Of a stretch of DNA of 33,640 bases, positions 2,634 to 15,817 are shown piece by piece. The notes under the pieces are model-generated. The model searched no databases and had not been told where the DNA came from. It saw only the letters and a list, made by a program, of their open reading frames with translations. The number at the start of each line of letters is the position of its first letter. Position 1 is the stretch's first letter. The DNA comes from Candidatus Rokuibacteriota bacterium (GTDB lineage: Bacteria; Methylomirabilota; Methylomirabilia; Rokubacteriales; CSP1-6), in NCBI GenBank assembly GCA_016179965.1, contig JACPCF010000022.1, positions 1-33,640 of the forward strand, read 5' to 3'. Position numbers and translations under genes: made by a program.

Positions 2634-3572
2634 ATGATAGAGACCCTCGCCTACGTGGCGCTCGTCGTCAGCGACGTCGAGGCAGCGGCCGCCATGTTCG
2701 AGCGCGACTTCGGGCTTCGCCTCACGGACTGCGCCGTGGGCAAGAGCGGACGCCGGGCGCCGGTGCTGAGCGTCGGTCTAAGCGCCCTGGCGCTCTTTCC
2801 GCCGGGGGATCCGTTCGTCGGCGGCCAGTCGAAGCCGGGCATCCACCACATCGCCCTTGGCATGAAGGATCTGTCGGCGGCGGCCCGTGCTGCGACGGCC
2901 GCGGGTGTCCCCGTCGCGGACGCGGAGCCGGGCGAGGGCCTCAACGGGACGCGCCGGGTGTTGCTTTCTCCGGAGGCGACCGCCGGAGTGAGGACGTATC
3001 TTTCAGAGCCCCTCCCGGTCGAACGCGCGCGCGGAGGCTTCGTCGAGCGCATCGACCACCTGGGCGTGGCCAGCGCTGACAACGGCGCGGCCATCGAGGC
3101 GTTCGTGACGCGCCTCGGCTGCCGCCTCGAGAGCACCCAGACGGACGTGGAGGCGCAGATCGCGGTCGAGAGCTTCACGTCGGACAAGTACGGGGTCGTC
3201 TATCACACGCGGCCGCCCGAACCGGTGGGTGGGCTCCGCGCGGCGTTCGTCACCGTGGGCGACTCAGAACTGGAGTTTCTGCAGGAATTCGATCCGCGGG
3301 CGGGCCCCCGGGTGGCTCGCGATCGGCCCGGGACCACCCGGCAGGACCAGGGCGCGATCGCGCGCTTCATCGCCACGCGCGGGGCGGGCCTCCACCACGT
3401 GGCGCTGAAGGTGACTGACATCAACGGCGCCCTCGCCGCTGTCGGGCGGGCGGGTCACTCGCTCATCGATACGGTCGGGCGCCCCGGGTCGCGCCGGGCG
3501 CTGATCGGCTTCATCCACCCGAAGAGCCTTTACGGGGTGCTCCTGCATCTCGTCCAGCGCGAGGAGGCCTGA
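2634..3572 (+). CDS. VOC (vicinal oxygen chelate) family protein with tandem domains
   Basis: The protein has 312 residues from ATG 2634; an in-frame GTG lies one codon earlier. The track start at 2247 is inside the upstream gene in another frame. Two glyoxalase/bleomycin-resistance-type regions can be seen. The first begins at residue 4 (LAYVALVVSDVEAAAAMF) and includes GIHHIALGMKDL. The second begins near 140 (VERIDHLGVASADN) and includes LHHVALKVTDI and the closing strand SLYGVLLHLVQ. The second half resembles methylmalonyl-CoA epimerase and 4-hydroxyphenylpyruvate dioxygenase in its His-bearing strands and in ELEFLQEFDP. It is therefore probably a cytoplasmic metal-dependent epimerase, lyase or dioxygenase. 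No neighbour narrows the substrate. The start is set by the first domain strand, since no good Shine-Dalgarno sequence is present. Confidence 0.85.
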   Translation: MIETLAYVALVVSDVEAAAAMFERDFGLRLTDCAVGKSGRRAPVLSVGLSALALFPPGDPFVGGQSKPGIHHIALGMKDLSAAARAATAAGVPVADAEPGEGLNGTRRVLLSPEATAGVRTYLSEPLPVERARGGFVERIDHLGVASADNGAAIEAFVTRLGCRLESTQTDVEAQIAVESFTSDKYGVVYHTRPPEPVGGLRAAFVTVGDSELEFLQEFDPRAGPRVARDRPGTTRQDQGAIARFIATRGAGLHHVALKVTDINGALAAVGRAGHSLIDTVGRPGSRRALIGFIHPKSLYGVLLHLVQREEA

Positions 3573-3575
3573 AGG

Positions 3576-3607
3576 AAAACGGGGCTGCGGATTCCTCCGC
3601 AACCCCG
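3576..3607 (-). terminator. Intrinsic terminator of the tRNA-Ala transcript
   Basis: A 12-position stem with one mismatch is formed by CGGGGCTGCGGA (3580-3591) and TCCGCAACCCCG (3596-3607) with a TTCC loop. On the minus strand the hairpin is followed by TTTTCC, so it ends transcription of the tRNA upstream. In the plus direction no T-run follows, but it could still hinder readthrough from the VOC gene. Confidence 0.75.
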
Positions 3608-3617
3608 CGAGAAGAAA

Positions 3618-3693
<76 letters not shown>

Positions 3694-3779: not shown

Positions 3780-4847
3780 TCAGGACAATCTGTGACCTGG
3801 AGGAGATCCGAGTGGTGCCGGGGAGGGGATTCGAACCCCTACGCCCTTGCGGGCACCGCGTTTTGAGCGCGGCGAGTCTACCAGTTTCTCCACCCCGGCT
3901 CTTTTCCGTTCGGCGGACCTTGAGGCGGTGATTGGTATAGTACAGCCAGCCGAATCGTACAGCCAGCCGACCCTTGGCCTTCCAACGGGACGCTTGCGAA
4001 TGTGCCCCAGCGGCTTGAGAAACGGTTCCGCCTTTGCGCGTTTCCGGGCCAGGCACGGGACCGTTGGGGCATAGTAGATCCAGCGGAGCAGTTCCATCGA
4101 TTCCCGCTTGGCGTAGCAGAGGCGCCATAGGGGGTGGCGGCGCCACGCCGTGCTCACAGTGATCGTGCCCGTAATGCCAAGCAACCGGTACGTTGTGCTT
4201 TGCACCCACTCCAGGAAGGGCTGGCTGGCCGAGACGAGTTCGACGTATAGCCGGTCGTAGACGTACCGGTGGTTCTTGGCGGCGTGATACAGATCGATGT
4301 ACACCGTGACCGATCCGTCACCGTCGATACAGCCTCGGAGGAAATCTCGGAAGCATTTGTCCGGCACGCGAAGGGAGCCAAGCCGGAAGCTCTTCGCCGG
4401 CATCAGTCCAATGCTCAGCAACCACAGATAGAAGAGGCGATCGGTCCATTGAAGCCGATGGTAGAGCTGCCCCCGGCCGTTCGCGACTCTGCTGATCGGA
4501 GCCGTGAGGTCGAGGCAGGATCGCGCGGTCTCGAGCATGTCGATGTCTTTCGACGTGATGCTGAGCGACCGACCATTTCCGGACAGGTTTCCATCCGCCG
4601 TGAGCAGCCCGACGGCCCACGCCAACTCTGGCGCCCACTCGGGTTTTTCGTGTGTGCATCTAGACCCAATGCGTCGAGCACCCGGCACGGGTCCTCGCGG
4701 CCGTCTTGTGATGCCGAGTTCGGCCATCCGCCGTCGGATCGTCGTCGGGGCGGAGCCAAGGCGCTGCGATATCTGCTCGATTGTCAACCGACGGTCGACG
4801 TAGAGCTCGCCTAGCTCATCGGCAGCGATCGTCGGGCGGGCACGCAC
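3780..4847 (-). CDS. LAGLIDADG homing endonuclease with N-terminal HTH; frame reads through tRNA-Leu
   Basis: Start GTG 4847 is chosen because CGGAGGT lies 6-7 nt before it; the track uses TTG 4865. The product is 355 residues. Residues about 10-48 look like a resolvase-type helix-turn-helix (LTIEQISQRLGSAPTTIRRR). Two LAGLIDADG motifs follow, AWAVGLLTADGNLS (about 76-89) and FLRGCIDGDGSV (about 169-180). Each keeps the acidic residue that binds catalytic Mg, so the enzyme may be active as a monomer. The core ends near IYYAPTVPCLARKRAKAEPF (about 257-276). From about residue 317 the frame simply translates tRNA-Leu(CAA) and stops at 3780, so the last 40 or so residues are unlikely to be conserved. 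A 17-bp tandem duplication at 3940-3970 changes frame within the C-terminal tail. It is probably free-standing and mobile: the neighbours are tRNA genes, and no intron or intein splice junction was seen. Confidence 0.85.
   Translation of the reverse strand: MRARPTIAADELGELYVDRRLTIEQISQRLGSAPTTIRRRMAELGITRRPRGPVPGARRIGSRCTHEKPEWAPELAWAVGLLTADGNLSGNGRSLSITSKDIDMLETARSCLDLTAPISRVANGRGQLYHRLQWTDRLFYLWLLSIGLMPAKSFRLGSLRVPDKCFRDFLRGCIDGDGSVTVYIDLYHAAKNHRYVYDRLYVELVSASQPFLEWVQSTTYRLLGITGTITVSTAWRRHPLWRLCYAKRESMELLRWIYYAPTVPCLARKRAKAEPFLKPLGHIRKRPVGRPRVGWLYDSAGCTIPITASRSAERKRAGVEKLVDSPRSKRGARKGVGVRIPSPAPLGSPPGHRLS
3813..3899 (-). tRNA. tRNA-Leu (anticodon CAA)
   Basis: This is a complete class II tRNA of 87 nt with CCA encoded, on the minus strand. 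The acceptor GCCGGGG pairs perfectly with CCCCGGC. The anticodon stem CCGCG/CGCGG holds the loop CTCAAAA, giving anticodon CAA (codon UUG). The long variable arm is TGCCCGCAAGGGCGT and the T-arm AGGGG-TTCGAAT-CCCCT. It lies wholly inside the 3' part of the homing-endonuclease reading frame on the same strand. No clear promoter of its own was found, so it may depend on transcription through the endonuclease gene. Confidence 0.97.
3940..3970. repeat. 17-bp tandem direct duplication at the 3' end of the endonuclease frame
   Basis: GTACAGCCAGCCGA occurs at 3940-3953 and again at 3957-3970, a period of 17 bp. Because 17 is not a multiple of 3, the duplication shifts the endonuclease frame. With one copy the gene would read on to a stop at 3709; with two it stops at 3780. 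It lies just upstream of tRNA-Leu. Confidence 0.9.
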
Positions 4848-4958
4848 GGGGGACCTCCGCCCCAACGCTAAGGCGCGGCGGGCGGCCCGTCAATGTCTTG
4901 GTTTGTAGACGCCCTAAGACGCCAGCACGCCGAGTGCCGTGTCAAGCGCGCGTAACAA

Positions 4959-5338: not shown

Positions 5339-5688
5339 ATGTCCGATTACGTTCCCGTGCTGATCTACGCCGCGTTCATCCTCGCGTTCGCGGTGACCTC
5401 GCTCGGCGTGGCGGCTCTCCTCAGGCCGAGCCGGTCGTACGACGCTAAGCTCTTGAATTACGAGTGCGGCTCCGAGCCGATCGGCGCGGCCTGGGTCCAG
5501 TTTCCCGTCGGGTTCTACCTGGTCGCGCTGGTGTTCCTCCTGTTCGACGTCCTCGCGGTCTTCCTCTTCCCCTGGGCGCTGACCCTGCGCGACTTGGGGC
5601 TGGCCGCCTTCTGGGCGATGGCGCTCTTCCTCTTCATCCTCTCGCTCGGCTGGCTCTACGCCTACCGAGAAGGGATGCTCGATTGGAA

Positions 5689-5692
<4 letters not shown>
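5339..5692 (+). CDS. nuoA: NADH-quinone oxidoreductase subunit A
   Basis: The 117-residue product is a normal NuoA: a small membrane subunit with three transmembrane helices (about 8-28, 60-82 and 88-108). The loop between helices 1 and 2 contains YECGSEPIG, the conserved segment with the Cys near the quinone site. [17 protein letters not shown] and the acidic residues around it are typical of the family. It is the first gene of the nuo operon, and its stop overlaps the nuoB start (GTGA). Confidence 0.96.
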
Positions 5693-6321
<629 letters not shown>

Positions 6322-6353
6322 AGCCGTGCCGATAACCATTGCATCCCCGCGTT

Positions 6354-6455: not shown

Positions 6456-6908
6456 GTGACCCCCGACCGCGCGATCTCCCTCGTCCAGGAGCGGTTTGGC
6501 CTCCAGGCCGCCGGCGAGGGGCGCTATCTCACTGTCGAAGGGGTTCCGGTCGAGCGCTGGCAGGAGTTCTTCCGCTTCGCCAAGGAGACGCTGGGCTGCC
6601 GCTTCTTCTCGTTCCTCACGGCCGTGGACTGGAAGGAGCAGGGGCTGGAGGTCGTTTGCCGCGTCGAGAATCTGGAGGACGGCGTGGGGATGCTGGCCAA
6701 GGCCCGGCTCGCGCCGGACGCGCGCTGCCCGTCTCTCACCGGGCTGTATCGCGGCGCGGACTGGATGGAGCGCGAGTGCTACGACATGTTCGGCGTGCGC
6801 TTCGAGGGCCACCCGGACCTCCGGCGAATCCTCCTCTCCCAAGACTGGGAGGGGTACCCGCTCCGGAAGGACTACGCCGTGGATACTCCTCACCCGCCCT
6901 ATCGATAA
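6456..6908 (+). CDS. nuoC: NADH-quinone oxidoreductase subunit C
   Basis: NuoC is the 30-kDa-type subunit of the complex I connecting module. The track starts at 6339, but those residues translate the upstream repeat. GTG 6456 gives [15 protein letters not shown] and a 150-residue protein, short but normal for a stand-alone NuoC. The family signature [18 protein letters not shown] is present, followed by [11 protein letters not shown] near the C-terminus. No strong ribosome-binding site precedes the GTG, so this start is likely rather than certain. Confidence 0.92.
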
Positions 6909-6920
6909 AAGGAGGCGCCC

Positions 6921-7565
6921 ATGATTTACGAGCTCAGGACCTACACGCTGATCCCCGGAACGGAGGCCGAGTATCTCCAGCTCTCGCGCGACATCGGGCG
7001 CAAGACCCGCGGCGACAAGTACGGCAAGCTCGAAGGGGCGTGGACGACCGAGTTCGGCACGCTGAACCAGTACGTCCACCTCTGGAGCTTTGCCGATCTC
7101 AACGAGCGAGAGCGTCTGCGCAAGGCGATGGCGCAGGACGAGGGGTGGACCAAGGAATACCTGCCGAAGATCCGCCCAATGCTCCTAGCGCAGGAGAACA
7201 AGATCCTCTACGCGGTGGATGGCGTTCCGCTCACACCTCCCATCGGCGCCGGCCGGCACGTGTACGAGCTCCGGACGTACCGCACCCCTGTGGGCAAGGC
7301 ACCGGAGTGGCTCGGCCACTTCAAGGCCATTCTGCCGACGCGCGAGAAGTACTCGAAGATCGTCGGGCTCTGGACCACGGACATCGGCGGGCTCAACCAG
7401 GTCGTGCACCTCTGGGCGTACAGCGATCTGAATCACCGCGCCGAGGTGCGGGCGAAGGCGGTCCAGGATCCGGAGTGGCAGGCGTTTCTCAAGAAGGGAT
7501 ACCCGCTGCTGGCGGAGATGCACTCGACGATCCTGACCCCGGCGGAGACTTCTCCGCTCCAGTAG
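6921..7565 (+). CDS. Tandem NIPSNAP-domain protein inside the nuo operon
   Basis: The 214-residue product contains two NIPSNAP (ferredoxin-like barrel) domains. One starts at MIYELRTYTLIPGTEAEYL and the other near residue 113 at HVYELRTYRTPVGKAPEW. Each has the paired strand motif: LNQYVHLWSFADLNER in the first and LNQVVHLWAYSDLNHR in the second. There is no signal peptide or membrane segment. A strong ribosome-binding site AAAGGAGG lies 6 nt upstream, better than those of the nuo genes. It sits 12 nt after nuoC and 3 nt before nuoD, so it is co-transcribed with complex I. NIPSNAP proteins are of uncertain function; a role in assembly or stability of this complex is an inference from position only. 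Confidence 0.92.
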   Translation: MIYELRTYTLIPGTEAEYLQLSRDIGRKTRGDKYGKLEGAWTTEFGTLNQYVHLWSFADLNERERLRKAMAQDEGWTKEYLPKIRPMLLAQENKILYAVDGVPLTPPIGAGRHVYELRTYRTPVGKAPEWLGHFKAILPTREKYSKIVGLWTTDIGGLNQVVHLWAYSDLNHRAEVRAKAVQDPEWQAFLKKGYPLLAEMHSTILTPAETSPLQ

Positions 7566-7568
7566 CCC

Positions 7569-8732
7569 ATGGCCGATCCCGAAGCGCGCAAGGTCATCGA
7601 GCTCGGCTACGGGGGGAACGAGCGCCTCGTGATGAACATGGGGCCGCAGCACCCCTCCGCCCACGGGGTCTTCCGGATGATCCTCACCCTGGAGGGGGAG
7701 ACCATCGCGGCCCTGGACTCGGTGATCGGCTACCTCCACCGCTGCCACGAGAAGCTCGGCGAGACGCTCACGTACGCCCAGTACCCCTCCATCGCGTCGA
7801 AGACCGACTACGTGGCGGCCATGACCTCGGAGCTCGCCTACGTCCTGGCCGCCGAGAAGATCGGGAAGATCGAGGTCCCCAAGCGGGCGCAGTACCTCCG
7901 CGTCCTGGTGGCCGAGCTCCAGCGGGTCGCGTCGCACTGCCTCTGGCTCGGCACCTGGTGCCTGGACATTGGCGGCGCGCTCGGCGGCGGCGCCACCGTC
8001 TTCCTCTACTGCTTCCGCGAGCGGGAGATGGTGCTGGACCTGTTCGAGTCGCTGACGGGCGCCCGGCTCCTCTACGGCTTTCACCAAGTCGGCGGCGTGC
8101 GGTACGACCTGCCGGAGGGATGGGCCCAGCGCTGCCGTGACACGGTGGACCGCATCGACCAGCGGCTGGACGAGTACGAAAGCATGCTCGAGTCGAACAC
8201 GGCCTTCCTCATCCGCTCCCAGCGCGTCGGCGTGATCTCCAGGGAGCTGGCCCAGGAGGTTGGCATCGCGGGGCCGCTCCTCCGCGGCTCGGGCGTGGAC
8301 TTCGACATCCGGCGCGACGACCCGTACTCCTCGTATGCGGATTTCGACTTCAAGATTCCCGTAGAGGAAGCGGGCGATTGCTACGCGAGATACCGGGTGA
8401 GGATGCAGGAATTCAGGGAATCCATCAAGATCGTCCGCCAGGCGCTGGACGGGCTGCCGGAGGGGCCCATCTCCTCGCGGCCAGCCTTGAAGTCGGTGGG
8501 GCAGGTGAGGATCCCCAAGGGCGAGGCCTACGCGCGGGTGGAGGGGCCGCGCGGCGAGGTGGGCTGCTACCTGATCGCGGACGGGAGCCCCAAGCCGTAC
8601 CGGATGAAGTGGCGCGGGGCCTCCTTCTCAAACCTCTCCATCCTTCCGCACATCGTGCCGGGCCACAAGGTGGCCGACGTGGTCGCCATCATGGGGTCGG
8701 TGGATCCGGTCTTCGGCGAGGTGGATCGCTGA
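7569..8732 (+). CDS. nuoD: NADH-quinone oxidoreductase subunit D
   Basis: NuoD is the 49-kDa-type subunit, related to the [NiFe]-hydrogenase large subunit; it forms the quinone pocket with NuoB and NuoH. The product is 387 residues. NMGPQHPSAHGVFRMIL near the N-terminus holds the quinone-pocket His loop. Further conserved segments are YLHRCHEKLGE, RVEGPRGEVGCYL and the C-terminal DPVFGEVDR. The hydrogenase metal-binding cysteines are absent, as expected. ATG 7569 follows the NIPSNAP stop by 3 nt, and the stop overlaps the nuoH ATG by 1 nt. In many operons nuoE, F and G would follow; here nuoH does. Confidence 0.97.
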   Translation: MADPEARKVIELGYGGNERLVMNMGPQHPSAHGVFRMILTLEGETIAALDSVIGYLHRCHEKLGETLTYAQYPSIASKTDYVAAMTSELAYVLAAEKIGKIEVPKRAQYLRVLVAELQRVASHCLWLGTWCLDIGGALGGGATVFLYCFREREMVLDLFESLTGARLLYGFHQVGGVRYDLPEGWAQRCRDTVDRIDQRLDEYESMLESNTAFLIRSQRVGVISRELAQEVGIAGPLLRGSGVDFDIRRDDPYSSYADFDFKIPVEEAGDCYARYRVRMQEFRESIKIVRQALDGLPEGPISSRPALKSVGQVRIPKGEAYARVEGPRGEVGCYLIADGSPKPYRMKWRGASFSNLSILPHIVPGHKVADVVAIMGSVDPVFGEVDR

Positions 8733-9709
8733 TGCGGGACGTCCTCGCCGCCTTCATTCTGCTCAACGCGGTCGTGCTGATCGTCACGTACCTCACGTAC
8801 GTGGAGCGCAAGTTCGCAGCCCGGATGCAGTCGCGGATCGGGCCCTACCGGGTGGGGCGCCCCCACGGGTGGCTCCAGCCCATCGCCGACGCGATCAAGC
8901 TCGTGATCAAGGAGGACATCATCCCGGCGCTGGCCGACCGGCCCGTCTACAACCTGGCGCCGATCGTCTTCCTGATCCCCTCGCTCCTCATCTTCGCCAC
9001 GATCCCCTTCGCCCCGGGCCTGGGACTCGCGGATCTGAACATCGGCCTCCTGTTTTTCCTGGCCGTTTCCTCCCTCGAGATCGTGGGCCTCTTCATGGGC
9101 GGCTGGGGCTCCAACAACAAGTACGCGCTGCTGTCGGCGATGCGCGGGGTCAACCAGATCATCTCCTACGAGGTGCCGTTCGTCCTGACCGCGCTGATCC
9201 CGGTTCTCCTGGCCGGCTCGCTCCAGCTCTCGGCCATCGTGGAGGCGCAACGGGGGCTCTGGTTCGTGGCCTATCCGGTCCTCGGGCAGCTCGCCTTCAT
9301 CGCCTTCGTCATCGCCACGATCGCCTCGGAGAACCGGGTGCCGTTCGACATCCTCGAGGCCGAGTCGGAGCTCGTGGCCGGCTTCCGCGTGGAGTACAGC
9401 GGGATGAAGTTCGCCCTGATCCAACTGGCGGAGTACACGCACATGTTCGGCGTTTCGTGCCTGGGGGCGCTGCTCTTCCTCGGCGGCTGGCTCGGCCCGG
9501 GGAGCGCCCATCCCGTCGTGGGCGCCGCCTGGTTCCTCCTGAAGGCCCTCTTCATCTTCCTCCTCGTGACGTGGGTGCGCTGGAGCTTCGTCCGGATCCG
9601 GGTGGACCAGATCCTGGGCCTCTCTTGGAAGGTGCTGCTCCCGGCGACGCTGATCCTCCTCATGGCCACCGGGTTCTGGGTGGCGTTGAGAAGTGGCCAT
9701 GTCGCGTAA
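8732..9709 (+). CDS. nuoH: NADH-quinone oxidoreductase subunit H
   Basis: NuoH is the membrane subunit that links the quinone site to the proton-pumping arm. The start is ATG 8732, overlapping the nuoD stop (TGATG); the track start at 8378 is inside nuoD. The 325-residue product has about eight transmembrane helices. The conserved loops YVERKFAARMQSRIGPYRVG and EAESELVAGFRVEYSG are present, including the glutamate-rich funnel proposed to couple quinone chemistry to proton movement. Length and motifs are normal. Confidence 0.97.
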   Translation: MRDVLAAFILLNAVVLIVTYLTYVERKFAARMQSRIGPYRVGRPHGWLQPIADAIKLVIKEDIIPALADRPVYNLAPIVFLIPSLLIFATIPFAPGLGLADLNIGLLFFLAVSSLEIVGLFMGGWGSNNKYALLSAMRGVNQIISYEVPFVLTALIPVLLAGSLQLSAIVEAQRGLWFVAYPVLGQLAFIAFVIATIASENRVPFDILEAESELVAGFRVEYSGMKFALIQLAEYTHMFGVSCLGALLFLGGWLGPGSAHPVVGAAWFLLKALFIFLLVTWVRWSFVRIRVDQILGLSWKVLLPATLILLMATGFWVALRSGHVA

Positions 9710-10226
9710 CGGGACGGGGTTCTGGGGGGAGACCTGGCAGACGGCCCGCGCCGTGGCGGCGGCCATGACGATCACCCTGAAGAACTTGTTCAGAAAGCCG
9801 GTGACGGTCCACTACCCCGACGTCGTCCGCCCCTATCCCGACCGCCTCCGAGGAATCCTGGCGCTCATCTACGACGAGACGGGGGAGGAGGCCTGCATCG
9901 GGTGCCGGCTCTGCGAGTACGTCTGCCCGCCCCAGGTGATCAAGGTGGAGATGCTCAAGGGGGAGAAGCGCAATTACGCGAAGACCTTCACGCTGGAGCT
10001 CTACGCCTGCGAGTTCTGCGAGCTCTGCGTCCAGGTCTGCCCGACGGACGCCATCATCATGCTGAAGACCTTCGACCTGGCCACCTCGGACCGCCGCGAG
10101 ATGCTCCTCGACAAGGATCGCCTCCACGCTCTGGGGAAGCAGTTCGAGAACTCCTGGGCCACCGGGACCAAGCTGAGGGAGATGCAGGCGCCGCCGAAAA
10201 CGGCAAAGGCGGAGGCCAAGGAGTGA
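9699..10226 (+). CDS. nuoI: NADH-quinone oxidoreductase subunit I (two 4Fe-4S clusters)
   Basis: NuoI is the ferredoxin-like subunit carrying clusters N6a and N6b. Both complete motifs are present, CIGCRLCEYVCPP and CEFCELCVQVCPTDAI. ATG 9699 gives 175 residues; an in-frame GTG two codons earlier (9693) is also possible. The gene overlaps the end of nuoH by 11 nt and its stop overlaps nuoJ (GTGA). With no NuoEFG in the operon, these clusters could be the entry point for electrons from a ferredoxin or another donor; that is an inference. Confidence 0.96.
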   Translation: MSRNGTGFWGETWQTARAVAAAMTITLKNLFRKPVTVHYPDVVRPYPDRLRGILALIYDETGEEACIGCRLCEYVCPPQVIKVEMLKGEKRNYAKTFTLELYACEFCELCVQVCPTDAIIMLKTFDLATSDRREMLLDKDRLHALGKQFENSWATGTKLREMQAPPKTAKAEAKE

Positions 10227-10717
10227 CCCTCGAGGCGGCGGGCTTCTGGGGGCTGGCCCCGGTGCTCCTGGCCTCCAGTCTCGCCGTCGTCCTTTCCAAG
10301 AACCTTTTCCACTCGGTTCTCTACCTGGCGCTGGCGCTGGTCGCCACCGCCGGCGTGTTCCTCCTCCTCCAGGCCGAATTCCTGGCCGCGGTCCAGGTCC
10401 TCCTCTACGCCGGCGGCGTGATCACGATCGTGGTCTTCGCCATCGTCGTCACGGAGCGGCTCGTGGGGGAGCGGCTGGCCCAGACGAACCGCGGGGTGAT
10501 CAACGGGGGGCTCATCTCCCTGGCGGTGCTGATCTGGATCGTCGTCTTCATTGCCGGGGCTCAACTCCCCCGGACGGCGCCGCCCCCGCCGGGAGACCTG
10601 ACCCAGGCCATCGGGCGGGACCTCCTCACCCGCTTCGTGCTGCCGTTCGAGCTCCTGGCGGTGCTCTTCCTGGCGGGGCTTCTCGGCGCGCTCTTCTTCG
10701 CGCGGAAAGAGGAGTGA
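10223..10717 (+). CDS. nuoJ: NADH-quinone oxidoreductase subunit J
   Basis: GTG 10223 overlaps the nuoI stop; the track start at 9902 is inside nuoI in another frame. The 164-residue product has about five transmembrane helices. VLLYAGGVITIVVFAIV is the conserved third helix of NuoJ with the pi-bulge region, and LFHSVLYLALALVATAGVFLL is the helix before it. The C-terminus ends GALFFARKEE. Confidence 0.95.
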   Translation: MTLEAAGFWGLAPVLLASSLAVVLSKNLFHSVLYLALALVATAGVFLLLQAEFLAAVQVLLYAGGVITIVVFAIVVTERLVGERLAQTNRGVINGGLISLAVLIWIVVFIAGAQLPRTAPPPPGDLTQAIGRDLLTRFVLPFELLAVLFLAGLLGALFFARKEE

Positions 10718-11016
10718 TGGGGCTCCAGCCCTACCTGATCCTGGCGGCCTGCCTCTTCGCGATCGGCCTCTTCGGCGTCCTGACGCGGCGGAACGCCATC
10801 GGGATCCTCCTGGGGATCGAGCTGATGCTCAACGCGGTCAACATCAATCTTGTCGCCTTCGCCCGCTACGCCGCGGATCCGGCGGGGCTGATTTTCACGC
10901 TCTTCACCATTTCCATCACCGTCGCCGAGGTCGCCCTGGGGCTCGCCATCGTCATTCTGATCTTCCGGGTCCGGCTCACGGTGGAGGCCGACCATCTGGA
11001 TCTGTTAAAAGGTTGA
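10717..11016 (+). CDS. nuoK: NADH-quinone oxidoreductase subunit K
   Basis: NuoK is a three-helix membrane subunit related to MnhC/MrpC antiporter proteins. ATG 10717 overlaps the nuoJ stop (TGATG) and gives 99 residues; the track uses the GTG one codon earlier. The helices carry the buried glutamates used in proton transfer, in GILLGIELMLNAVNINLVAF and ITVAEVALGLAIVI. Length is normal. The gap to nuoL is 24 nt. Confidence 0.96.
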   Translation: MGLQPYLILAACLFAIGLFGVLTRRNAIGILLGIELMLNAVNINLVAFARYAADPAGLIFTLFTISITVAEVALGLAIVILIFRVRLTVEADHLDLLKG

Positions 11017-11040: not shown

Positions 11041-12864
11041 ATGATCAACGCCGGCACGCTGGCCCTGGCGGCCCTGGGGCTGCCCTTTGGCTCGTTCGTC
11101 CTCCTCGCGGTGATTCCGCCGCTCCGGCGCGCCGGCCGGGCTGCAGGAGCGCTGAGCATTGCCGCCACCGGCGGCTCACTCCTGGCCTCGCTGATCCTCT
11201 GGCGAGGTCTCCCTGGTCAGCCGGTCGAGCTCCAGTGGAGCTGGCTCCCGGCCGAGAGCGGCCCCATGGCCAGCGTTGGCGTCCTCGTGGACCCCCTGGC
11301 GGCAAAGATGCTCGTCCTGGTGGCGCTGGTCTCGTTCCTCGTCCAGCTCTACTCGCTGGGATATCTGGAGCAGGAGACGGCCCCCGCGCTCGGGCGCTAC
11401 TTCGCCTACCACTCGCTCTTCGCCTTCTCGATGATCGGCCTGGTGCTCGCCTCGAACTTCCTCCAGATGTTCATCTTCTGGGAGCTGGTGGGGCTCTGCT
11501 CCTACCTCCTGATCGGCTTCTGGTACGACAAGCCCGAGGCGGCGCGCGCGGCCGTGAAGGCGTTCTGGGTGACGAAAGCGGGGGACCTCGGGTTCATCAT
11601 CGGGATCGTGCTGCTCTGGGGGCAGGCGGGGACCTTCAACTTTATCGAGCTGTTCGCGATGGCCTCGGGCAAGACGCTTCCGGCGGCGGGGCTCGGCCTC
11701 ATCATGTTCCTCATTTATCTGGGCGCGGTCGGCAAGAGTGCTCAGTTCCCCCTCCACGTCTGGCTCCCCGACGCCATGGAGGGCCCGACGCCGGTCTCGG
11801 CCCTGATCCACGCGGCCACGATGGTGGCGGCCGGCGTGTACCTGGTCAGCCGCGTCTATCCGCTCTTCCTGCTGACCCCCGACGTCCTCGCGCTGATCGC
11901 CTGGGTGGGGGCCTTTACCGCGCTCCTGGCCGCCACGTTGGGGCTCGTCCAGGCCGACATCAAACGCGTGCTGGCCTATTCCACCGTCTCGCAGTTGGGC
12001 TACATGATGGCGGCCCTCGGCGCCGGCGCGGCGGCGGCGGGCTTCTTCCACCTCCTGACCCACGGCCTCTTCAAGGCGCTCCTCTTCCTGGGCGCCGGTG
12101 CGGTGATCCACGCCGTGGGGACCAACGACATCTGGCAGATGGGGCGCCTCGGGCGGGCGATGCCGCAGACCGCGATCGTGTTTCTCGTGGGGACGCTGGC
12201 CCTGGCGGGCATCTGGCCGCTGGCCGGGTTTTTCTCCAAGGACGCCGTCCTCGCCGGCGTCTGGGAGGGCGGGCTTACGGTGCCGTTCCTCATGCTGGCC
12301 GTGACGGTCTTCCTCACGGCCTTCTACATGTTCCGGGTCGTTTTCGTCGTCTTCTTCGGGAGCGGCCACGCCGAGGGCCACCCCCACGACGCGCCGCTCG
12401 TCATGACCGTGCCGCTCTGGATCCTCGCGATTCTCACCGTGGGGGCGGGAATCCGGCTCGCCGTCGGCGGAGATGAGGGAGCCCACAGCCCCGGCTGGGT
12501 GCCCTGGCTGTCTTCAGCCCTGGCCGTGGCGGGGATCGCGGGGGCGTGGCTCACCTACCAGAGAGGCACGGTGAGCGCCGACGCTCTGGTGCGGGCGTTC
12601 CGGCCACTCTATTTCGCCGCCGTCAAGAAGTTCTGGCTGGACGACCTCTACGGCGCGATCTACCGCGGCGTCTTCCTCGGCGTCTCGTGGGGCGTGGGGT
12701 GGGTGGACCGCTACCTGGTGGACGGCGTGGTGAATCTGGCGAGCGCCTGGACCCTCCGCTGGGGCGACCGCTTGAGACAGATCCAGACAGGGCGGGCGCA
12801 GGACTACCTCTACGGCGTCGCCCTCGGCCTCCTCCTCGTGATCGTCTGGAGCTACTGGCGCTGA
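11041..12864 (+). CDS. nuoL: NADH-quinone oxidoreductase subunit L (antiporter-like)
   Basis: NuoL is the distal antiporter-like proton-pumping subunit. The product is 607 residues with about 15-16 transmembrane helices. Key segments are the Glu helix FIFWELVGLCSYLLIGFW, the Lys in VTKAGDLGFIIG, the discontinuous-helix motif HVWLPDAMEGPTPVSALIHA and the second-half region STVSQLGYMMAALG. The C-terminal extension (about 500-607) would include the lateral helix that clamps NuoM and NuoN. The stop overlaps the nuoM ATG by 1 nt. Confidence 0.97.
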   Translation: MINAGTLALAALGLPFGSFVLLAVIPPLRRAGRAAGALSIAATGGSLLASLILWRGLPGQPVELQWSWLPAESGPMASVGVLVDPLAAKMLVLVALVSFLVQLYSLGYLEQETAPALGRYFAYHSLFAFSMIGLVLASNFLQMFIFWELVGLCSYLLIGFWYDKPEAARAAVKAFWVTKAGDLGFIIGIVLLWGQAGTFNFIELFAMASGKTLPAAGLGLIMFLIYLGAVGKSAQFPLHVWLPDAMEGPTPVSALIHAATMVAAGVYLVSRVYPLFLLTPDVLALIAWVGAFTALLAATLGLVQADIKRVLAYSTVSQLGYMMAALGAGAAAAGFFHLLTHGLFKALLFLGAGAVIHAVGTNDIWQMGRLGRAMPQTAIVFLVGTLALAGIWPLAGFFSKDAVLAGVWEGGLTVPFLMLAVTVFLTAFYMFRVVFVVFFGSGHAEGHPHDAPLVMTVPLWILAILTVGAGIRLAVGGDEGAHSPGWVPWLSSALAVAGIAGAWLTYQRGTVSADALVRAFRPLYFAAVKKFWLDDLYGAIYRGVFLGVSWGVGWVDRYLVDGVVNLASAWTLRWGDRLRQIQTGRAQDYLYGVALGLLLVIVWSYWR

Positions 12865-14408
12865 TGGGCTGCAACGGGATTCCCCTCCTCACGCTGATCA
12901 CCTGGGCGCCCTTCCTGGGAGCCGTGCTCATCATGTTCACCGCCCGTCATCATCCCCTGGCCGTGCGGTTGATCGCGGCGGTGACCACCGGCATCTCGCT
13001 CGTGCTGTCGGTGGTGGTCTATCTTGGGTACGACACCGACGCGGCGGGGTTTCAGTGCTACGAGAAGATCCCGCTGGTGCCCGCGCTCGGGATTTCCTAC
13101 GAGGTGGGCGCCGACGGGATCAGCCTCATCCTGGTGCTCCTCACGGCCATCATCATCTTCTCCGGCGTCTTCGCCTCGTGGACCATCCAGACGCGGAGCC
13201 AGGAGTTCTACGCGCTCCTGCTGGTCCTCGTGACGGGCGTCTTCGGCGTCTTCGTCTCGCTCGACCTCTTCGTCTTCTTCCTCTTCTACGAGCTCGCGGT
13301 CCTGCCCATGTACCTCCTGATCGGGATCTGGGGGACGTCGGCCCAGATCCGGCCGCGGGGGATCTTCGCGTGGGCGATGCGGGAGACGGGGGTCGGGTCC
13401 AAGGAGTACGCCGCGATGAAGCTGACCCTCTACCTGCTGCTCGGGTCGGCCTTTATCCTGGTGGGGATCCTCGCCCTCTACATGGCCGCGGGCGGCTCCT
13501 CCTTCTCCTTCCTCGAGCTGGAGGGCGCCGCCTTCGACCCGGTGCTCCAGCGGTGGGTGTTCCTGCTCTTCTACGTGGGGTTCGGGGTCCTGGCGGGGAT
13601 CTGGCCGCTCCACACCTGGTCCCCCGACGGCCACGCCTCGGCTCCCACCGCCGTCTCCATGCTTCACGCCGGCGTGCTGATGAAGCTGGGCGCCTACGGC
13701 GTGGTGAGGATGGGGATGGGGCTGCTGCCCGAGGGGACGCACGACTGGGTGCCGCTCGTGGGCACGATCGCGACCATCAACATCGTCTACGGCGCGCTCT
13801 CGGCCATGGCCCAGACCGACCTCAAGTACGTGATCGCCTACTCGTCGGTCTCGCACATGGGGATCGTGATGCTGGGGGCCGCGACGCTGACCGAGGCCGG
13901 GCTGAACGGCTCGGTTTTCCAGATGTTCGCCCACGGGATCATGACCGGCCTCTTCTTCGCGCTCGTCGGCCTGGTCTATGAAAAGGCGCACTCGCGGGAG
14001 ATCTCCAAGATGGGCGGCTTCGGCCGCATGATGCCGGGGATCGCCACGGCGTTCACCCTCGGAGGCCTGTCGTCGCTGGGGCTGCCCGCGACGGCGGGGT
14101 TCGTGGCCGAGTTCCTCACGTTCCTGGGCGCCTGGCGCTCGGCCCACGCCTGGTGGCTCTTCCCCGCGGTGGCCGGGACGTTCCTCACGGCCATCTACGT
14201 CCTCCGCGTGGTGAAGCAGATCTTCTGGGGTCCCGCCCCGGCCCACGGCGAGTTCCATGATCTCCCCGACGCTCGCGGGCCCGAGTGGGTGGCGCTGGTG
14301 CTCCTCATGTTCGTGATCGTCCTCTTCGGCATGGTGCCGGCAATCGCCATCGGCCCCATCGATACTGCCACGGTCCCGTTGCTGACCCGGCTGGGGATCC
14401 GCCCATGA
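12864..14408 (+). CDS. nuoM: NADH-quinone oxidoreductase subunit M (antiporter-like), with a loop insertion
   Basis: NuoM is the second antiporter-like pump. ATG 12864 overlaps the nuoL stop; the track start at 12546 is inside nuoL. The product is 514 residues. The Glu helix FFLFYELAVLPMYLLIGIWG, the discontinuous-helix segment HTWSPDGHASAPTAVSMLHA and the SSVSHMGIVMLG region are present. After IGIWG the protein carries about 20 extra residues (SAQIRPRGIFAWAMRETGVG) before the usual EYAAMKLTLYLLLGS, where many NuoM have only a short GxxRE link. The stop overlaps nuoN by 4 nt (ATGA). Confidence 0.96.
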   Translation: MGCNGIPLLTLITWAPFLGAVLIMFTARHHPLAVRLIAAVTTGISLVLSVVVYLGYDTDAAGFQCYEKIPLVPALGISYEVGADGISLILVLLTAIIIFSGVFASWTIQTRSQEFYALLLVLVTGVFGVFVSLDLFVFFLFYELAVLPMYLLIGIWGTSAQIRPRGIFAWAMRETGVGSKEYAAMKLTLYLLLGSAFILVGILALYMAAGGSSFSFLELEGAAFDPVLQRWVFLLFYVGFGVLAGIWPLHTWSPDGHASAPTAVSMLHAGVLMKLGAYGVVRMGMGLLPEGTHDWVPLVGTIATINIVYGALSAMAQTDLKYVIAYSSVSHMGIVMLGAATLTEAGLNGSVFQMFAHGIMTGLFFALVGLVYEKAHSREISKMGGFGRMMPGIATAFTLGGLSSLGLPATAGFVAEFLTFLGAWRSAHAWWLFPAVAGTFLTAIYVLRVVKQIFWGPAPAHGEFHDLPDARGPEWVALVLLMFVIVLFGMVPAIAIGPIDTATVPLLTRLGIRP

Positions 14409-15817
14409 GTGCGCTGGCCCTCGAGATCGGGCTGGGGCTCCTGATGCTGGGCGTCTTCGCGGTGGGCCTGGTCGCCCGCGGCGACGCTCGCCGAATCGCC
14501 GGGCTGCTCTCGGCCGTCGGCGTGCTTGCCCTGACCGTCGGCTCGTTCTTCCTCGAGCCTCTGCCCGCCGGGACCCGCGCTGCCTTCGTCCTGGACGGCC
14601 TCGCGCTCTTCGCCAAGCAGCTCTTCCTCGTGGCGACTTTCATCGGGATCCTCGGCTCGCTGTCGCTCCCGGACCCCGCGTTCCGCCGTCGGGCGCCGGA
14701 GTACTACCTACTGCTCCTGGCCTCGCTCCTCGGGATGCTCGTCCTGGCGGGAGCGCGGGAGCTGATCCTGCTCTTCGTGGCCTTCGAGCTGATGTCCATC
14801 CCGCTCTATATTCTTTCGGGCTTCTTGAAGCGAGAGGATGTCGCCGTGGAGGCAGCGCTGAAGTTCTTCCTCGTCGGGACCGTCTCGTCGGCCATCCTGG
14901 CCTACGGGCTCTCCTTCGTCTACGGCGCGAGCGGGACCACCGACCTGGCCGGCGTGGCGCGGGCCCTGGCGGTGCCCGGCCCGCTTCTCATCCTCGGCAT
15001 GCTGCTCGTGCTGGGCGGCTTCGGGTTCAAGATCGCCGCCTTTCCGTTCCACATGTGGGTGCCCGACACCTACGAGGCCGCCAGCACGCCCTTCGTGGCC
15101 TGGCTCTCGGTGGCGCCGAAGGCCGCGGGGTTCGTGGCGCTCTTCCGCGTCTACCTCGAGGGAGTGGGGGACACCGTCGCGCTCTGGGTGCCGGTCGTGG
15201 CCGGGCTCGCGGCGATCACGATGGTGGCCGGGAACCTGATGGCCCTGCCCCAGCAGAACAGCAAGCGCCTCCTGGCCTACTCGGGGATCGCCCACATCGG
15301 CTACATGCTGGTCGGCCTCGCCGCCGTGTCGGCGTCGGGAACGGCCATGGTGCTCTTCTACCTGGTGGCGTACGTCTTCGGGAACATGGGCGCGTTCCTG
15401 GTGGTCGAGAGCGTGGCCCAGGCGGAGGGCGGCTCGGCGCACCTGGATGCGCTCCGCGGCCTGGCGCAGCGCTCACCGCTCCTGGCGCTGGCCATGCTGC
15501 TCTGCCTCCTGTCGCTCGGGGGAATTCCCTTCGTGGCCGGCTTCTGGGCCAAGCTCTACGTCTTCTGGGCCGCCGCCCAGGCCGGACTCTACTGGCTCGT
15601 GCTTGTGGGGGCTGTCCTCACGGTGGTGGCGCTCTTCTATTACCTGATCCTGGCCCGGCGCATGTACATCGAAGCGCCTCAGCGGCCCGGCCGGATTCCC
15701 GTGTCGCCGCCTCTCGCGCTGGCCATCCTCATCTGCGCCCTGGGCGTCGTGGGCCTCGGCGTCTATCCGAAGCCGCTGGTGGAGCTGGCGCTCCGCGTCG
15801 CCAACGGCCTGTTCTGA
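14405..15817 (+). CDS. nuoN: NADH-quinone oxidoreductase subunit N (antiporter-like)
   Basis: NuoN is the antiporter-like pump nearest the core and the last gene of the operon. ATG 14405 overlaps the nuoM stop; the track start at 14285 is inside nuoM. The 470-residue product contains LFVAFELMSIPLYILSGFLK (Glu helix), AALKFFLVGTVSSAILAYG (Lys helix), FPFHMWVPDTYEAASTPFVA (discontinuous helix) and LAYSGIAHIGYMLVGLAA. Length is normal. No clear intrinsic terminator follows; the next 70 nt contain no gene and lead into the tetR promoter. Confidence 0.97.
   Translation: MSALALEIGLGLLMLGVFAVGLVARGDARRIAGLLSAVGVLALTVGSFFLEPLPAGTRAAFVLDGLALFAKQLFLVATFIGILGSLSLPDPAFRRRAPEYYLLLLASLLGMLVLAGARELILLFVAFELMSIPLYILSGFLKREDVAVEAALKFFLVGTVSSAILAYGLSFVYGASGTTDLAGVARALAVPGPLLILGMLLVLGGFGFKIAAFPFHMWVPDTYEAASTPFVAWLSVAPKAAGFVALFRVYLEGVGDTVALWVPVVAGLAAITMVAGNLMALPQQNSKRLLAYSGIAHIGYMLVGLAAVSASGTAMVLFYLVAYVFGNMGAFLVVESVAQAEGGSAHLDALRGLAQRSPLLALAMLLCLLSLGGIPFVAGFWAKLYVFWAAAQAGLYWLVLVGAVLTVVALFYYLILARRMYIEAPQRPGRIPVSPPLALAILICALGVVGLGVYPKPLVELALRVANGLF

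Follow-up and report, generated by a model that had tools for sequence, protein, structure and literature searches.

A two-domain NIPSNAP gene at the nuoC-nuoD junction of the Rokubacterial 11-subunit complex I operon

In Candidatus Rokubacteria (Rokuibacteriota), the nuoC-nuoD junction of an 11-subunit complex I operon holds a gene for a two-domain NIPSNAP protein. This gene has been kept by purifying selection across the lineage, although the complex can do without it. Our preferred reading, to which we give a probability of about 0.45, is that the product is a small-molecule pocket protein or enzyme that is not essential, is co-expressed with the complex and works beside it, and is not a structural subunit. 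Animal members of the NIPSNAP family are associated with mitochondria, and what they do biochemically is still unsettled. A lineage-wide, selectively maintained NIPSNAP gene in an 11-subunit nuo operon is a specific setting in which a respiratory role could be tested.

The NIPSNAP gene and its host operon

The window, that is, the whole stretch of 33,640 nucleotides that was analysed, encodes on its forward strand all 11 core subunits of complex I: nuoA (5339-5692; PF00507, E 6e-32), nuoB (5689-6321, GTG start; PF01058, E 1.8e-31, and NuoB models), nuoC (6456-6908; PF00329, E 3.6e-36, and NuoC_fam), nuoD (7569-8732; PF00346, E 3.3e-93, and NF004739 above its cut-off), nuoH (8732-9709; PF00146, E 2.2e-111), nuoI (9693-10226, with two 4Fe-4S motifs; Fer4_7 and related domains), nuoJ (10223-10717; PF00499), nuoK (10714-11016; PF00420), nuoL (11041-12864; PF00361 and PF00662), nuoM (12864-14408; PF00361) and nuoN (14405-15817; PF00361). 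For nuoC we chose a GTG start within a longer frame that begins with TTG at 6339. A TetR-like gene (PF16925) lies downstream of nuoN.

A domain search of the window found no NuoE, NuoF or NuoG in the operon, and neither NuoF nor NuoG was found in the Nuo1 regions of the relatives G022 and G011. Elsewhere in the source genome, a second nuo cluster on contig C92 carries NuoF and NuoG, and the NuoF matches of this genome fall on contigs C92 and C78 only. The latter, a 3.1-kb contig, holds at its end a partial second NuoE-NuoF-like frame (locus L079, 2200-3122), apart from the C92 cluster; the product of this frame could be a diaphorase that serves either the headless complex or some other enzyme.

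The NIPSNAP open reading frame (6921-7565, forward strand) starts with ATG and encodes 214 amino acids. It matches PF07978 twice (E 1.3e-55), with 186 bits for the whole protein against a curated cut-off of 22.3, and with 104.5 and 85.3 bits for its halves taken separately. The earlier note spoke of a tandem NIPSNAP gene, which is apt for the two domains but not for the gene, which is a single reading frame. An assembly-wide search of the source assembly (2.99 Mb) found this one NIPSNAP only. Its tight insertion, also claimed in that note, was borne out by the coordinates, with 12 nt between the nuoC stop (6908) and the NIPSNAP start and 3 nt between the NIPSNAP stop and the nuoD start (7569). 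A Shine-Dalgarno sequence, AGGAGG (6910-6915, forward strand), lies 5 nt before the ATG and gives an anti-Shine-Dalgarno pairing of -11.6 kcal/mol, compared with +0.6 for nuoD, which is without a usable one. The strongest of the remaining operon starts scored, nuoH aside, is that of nuoJ (-9.5), and GAGGTGG stands upstream of the nuoH ATG at 8732; the earlier note's view that the NIPSNAP gene has the operon's best ribosome-binding site is correct or close to a tie.

Other features of the window lie outside the operon. On the reverse strand, a reading frame with a LAGLIDADG_3 domain (3780-4865; E 1.3e-9) overlaps a tRNA-Leu(caa) (3813-3899), with a tRNA-Ala (3618-3693, also reverse) close by, an arrangement of a homing-endonuclease-like gene beside tRNA genes. 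A short reading frame at 17221-17769 matches the C-terminal part of the glycine/sarcosine/betaine reductase selenoprotein B (GRDB, E 2e-11).

Distribution, origin and variants

We reconstructed the nuoC-nuoD junction in all relatives with both genes on one contig, including G075 through its locus L125, the two being matched by contig coordinates; nearly all of these Candidatus Rokubacteria/Rokuibacteriota genomes are metagenome-assembled genomes in contigs. NIPSNAP fills the slot in 50 of the 52 Rokubacterial genomes whose junction could be read, in 24 genera and three families. Such a survey of related genomes had been proposed in the earlier note, with an insertion unique to this genome or absent from close relatives as the outcome that would speak against its claim; the survey confirmed a fixed position instead. 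The slot is empty in G011, where nuoC and nuoD overlap (TGATG), and in G074, where they are 11 nt apart. Because genomes of the same genus as each carry the gene, these cases are most simply read as two clean losses. None of the five sister-order nuo clusters that were read has a NIPSNAP between nuoC and nuoD, and among 35 genomes outside the order only one has any NIPSNAP at E <= 1e-25, with 35% identity.

Scanning 84,980 species genomes returned 549 relatives, and the best 80 loci were retained for inspection. All nuo-linked loci among these 80 are Rokubacterial, while the 37 loci from Pseudomonadota (mostly from Alphaproteobacteria, 43-55% identical) and the two from Chloroflexota (contigs L098 and L115, 66-67% identical to the window protein) show no nuo genes over flanks of up to 6 kb. 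In the maximum-likelihood tree, a Rokubacterial clade of 47 rows, which takes in both Chloroflexota sequences, is separated from Pseudomonadota with an SH-aLRT of 99. The two Chloroflexota proteins are probably transfers out of Rokubacteria or come from mis-binned contigs. Since the slot is filled almost throughout Rokubacteria and in no other group that was looked at, recruitment can be placed in the Rokubacterial lineage, and the simplest reading is that it took place once, in the Rokubacterial ancestor. A literature search found no publication joining NIPSNAP with NADH-quinone oxidoreductase or with a bacterial nuo operon.

The NIPSNAP dN/dS is about 0.12-0.2, like that of nuoC, which indicates purifying selection. 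The content of the slot varies. G018 carries a divergent B-type NIPSNAP in tandem with the A-type, and G021 and G022 carry the B-type alone, 49-50% identical to the window protein. The NuoD and NuoC of G021 and G022 are 93-94% and 84-86% identical to those of the window, against 93% and 87% in G001, an A-type genome of the same genus as the source genome; by these identities, both subunits appear hardly more diverged in the B-type genomes than in A-type relatives. In G037 the protein has one domain and 104 amino acids. Two further candidates were discarded: the apparent NIPSNAP-NuoD fusion of G034 (one 638-aa frame) is due to a deletion that frameshifts the NIPSNAP C-terminus, so that the frame continues into nuoD, and the short NIPSNAP of G024 reflects an internal deletion in one metagenome-assembled genome, the gene being intact in the sister genomes G076 and G077. 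In G025 the spacer between nuoC and NIPSNAP is 286 nt long (L053, about 3290-3590) and is made up of repeats of some tens of bases with a repeating GASRRTSRGVPPRRPRRAKDA-like translation; other relatives differ.

Copies of the same clade also occur outside nuo, with neighbours whose functions we assigned by domain matches. A B-type copy in G016 lies amid genes for TctA, an AMP-ligase and a periplasmic binding protein, and in genus g19 a copy adjoins genes for a glyoxalase/dioxygenase-superfamily protein and a periplasmic binding protein. This catabolic context is not uniform, because other copies adjoin unrelated genes, namely gltX and an MFS gene in G036 and the PNPase gene on a Chloroflexota contig. 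A second clade NIPSNAP copy in G032 lies next to, and in divergent orientation to, a gene for a UbiA-type prenyltransferase (PF01040; L088, 6398-7030 and 7557-9491), a neighbour that possibly hints at prenylated or quinone chemistry.

Predicted fold and conserved residues

The AlphaFold2 model of the window protein (pLDDT 92.4, pTM 0.88) consists of two beta-alpha-beta-beta-alpha-alpha-beta modules. Together with the matches to solved NIPSNAP structures, it identifies ferredoxin-like alpha+beta modules of the dimeric alpha-beta-barrel type. The domains, which match PF07978 well above its cut-off, have relatives by sequence among the bacterial NIPSNAPs of solved structure (1vqs, 1vqy, 2ap6, 5ixu, 5kak and 5k9f), and by fold they match 1vqy, 2ap6 and 5ixu, the solved domains superposing on the model with an rmsd of 1.3-2.6 A. 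These solved NIPSNAPs are single domains of about 100 amino acids, whereas the window protein is a two-domain chain from a nuo operon. Taken as a whole chain, the model matches putative monooxygenases (3f44, 3mcs), an anthrone-oxidase-like protein (5f9p), PenE (9kdp) and a coproheme decarboxylase. With the first four the predicted likeness extends over the whole pseudo-dimer (TM-score 0.64-0.71) and is one of fold only, the sequence identity being 7-12%; for all of these proteins, the decarboxylase included, it is about 12% or less.

Nearly all conserved residues are shared with the wider family: of the columns conserved in the nuo-linked A-type proteins, 36 are conserved in relatives outside nuo too, and 34 of these 36 are kept in the B-type. 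These shared columns include E4, R6, Y8, W41, N49, H53 and W55, and most of their counterparts in the second half, while only four conserved columns are specific to the Rokubacterial clade. From the alternation of residues along the strands, the conserved polar and aromatic residues probably line a pocket. The protein has no cysteines and no Fe-S motif, and its Pfam domains are NIPSNAP only.

Possible roles and comparison with known systems

On the reading that we prefer, a soluble, cysteine-free dimeric alpha-beta-barrel chain, whose two NIPSNAP modules would form a pseudo-dimer with a conserved polar and aromatic set in each half, presumably entered the operon of a complex I without the NuoEFG head in a single event, in the ancestor of Rokubacteriales. 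Its strong ribosome-binding site would drive its own translation, and close coupling may help to feed the poorly initiated nuoD. The protein would act as an auxiliary enzyme or bind a small molecule, lipophilic or aromatic, that is tied to respiration, with the quinone pool as the prime candidate, and selection would keep the gene in the operon even though the complex can manage without it. Quinone chemistry suggests itself on account of the operon and of the quinone-forming oxidases, such as anthrone oxidases and quinol monooxygenases, that the dimeric alpha-beta-barrel fold includes. Two points stand against this reading: the near-universal fixed position exceeds what a free-standing enzyme strictly needs, and the predicted fold alone gives no chemistry, the best whole-chain enzyme matches being 10-12% identical.

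The same position could reflect a lineage-specific accessory subunit or assembly factor on the peripheral arm (NuoB, NuoC, NuoD and NuoI) of the headless complex, perhaps near the site of NuoEFG, an explanation that we find possible but doubtful. It would fit a gene that holds the nuoC-nuoD slot in 50 of 52 genomes, with a strong Shine-Dalgarno sequence in all 50 relatives scored (each at -6 or below, median -8.8), evolving at about the pace of NuoC in an operon that lacks NuoEFG. An accessory subunit should nevertheless be present wherever the core complex is encoded, and this one is absent from the five sister-order clusters and from G011 and G074, where nuoC and nuoD are otherwise normally joined. 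Moreover, a version only 50% identical can take the slot with no visible change in NuoC or NuoD, the version in G037 has a single domain, only four conserved columns are specific to the nuo clade, and the apparent fusion with NuoD is a frameshifting deletion. In sum, it is the position of the gene that argues for a subunit or assembly factor, a role we regard with some scepticism. The step taken in the earlier note from a fixed position to a role with complex I is weakened by the clean losses, the swap, the few specific residues and the copies outside nuo, although the position itself is fixed; the roles it named, in assembly, quinone handling or quality control, are possible. Narrower still, and rather unlikely in our view, is a dedicated partner of the headless Rokubacterial complex that docks at the peripheral arm or the quinone entry and acts on quinones or on assembly. 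If this were true, it would provide a bacterial NIPSNAP with a defined respiratory role and a clue to what the mitochondrial family does.

A metabolic passenger gene, biochemically unconnected with complex I, is also unlikely; on this view the gene would have entered the operon and persisted there for the sake of co-expression, or for a strong ribosome-binding site that now leads nuoD. The weak nuoD Shine-Dalgarno of most relatives (median -3.1, against -8.8 for NIPSNAP), the NIPSNAP stops and nuoD starts that often overlap or lie within 15 nt, the clade copies outside nuo and the two clean losses are what such a passenger would lead one to expect. However, the two genes are more than 30 nt apart in 18 genomes, so that coupling is weak there, and the nuoD Shine-Dalgarno is equally weak in G011 and G074, so the NIPSNAP gene is not needed to lead nuoD. 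Translational coupling may contribute to retention of the gene, but as the sole reason it is unlikely. Drift would, in addition, be expected across 24 genera, yet purifying selection acts on the codons. That the protein stands in for the missing NuoEFG as an electron-input module is very improbable, and we reject this idea. Although an operon of 11 subunits leaves the direct electron donor open (PMC11238625), a protein without cysteines cannot supply Fe-S electron input; it has no redox motif and no domain other than NIPSNAP, there is no Fe-S or flavin electron carrier among the leading fold matches, and two genomes manage without the gene. The Rokubacterial genomes provide a natural comparison set of knock-outs (G011, G074), swaps (G021, G022), a double (G018) and a half-size version (G037).

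Animal NIPSNAP1/2 share the family name with the window protein and are linked to mitochondria, the site of complex I, where they take part in mitochondrial quality control (PMC10824736). The nearest relatives found for the Rokubacterial clade are mainly Alphaproteobacterial and lie outside nuo. Several phyla have 11-subunit complex I-like enzymes that lack NuoEFG; both the direct electron donor and the partners of these enzymes are open questions (PMC11238625). Like the 11-subunit operons of Desulfitobacterium hafniense (PMC11238625), the window operon comprises subunits A-D and H-N. It differs from them in the extra NIPSNAP gene between nuoC and nuoD, and its source organism differs in having a second nuo cluster that carries NuoF and NuoG.
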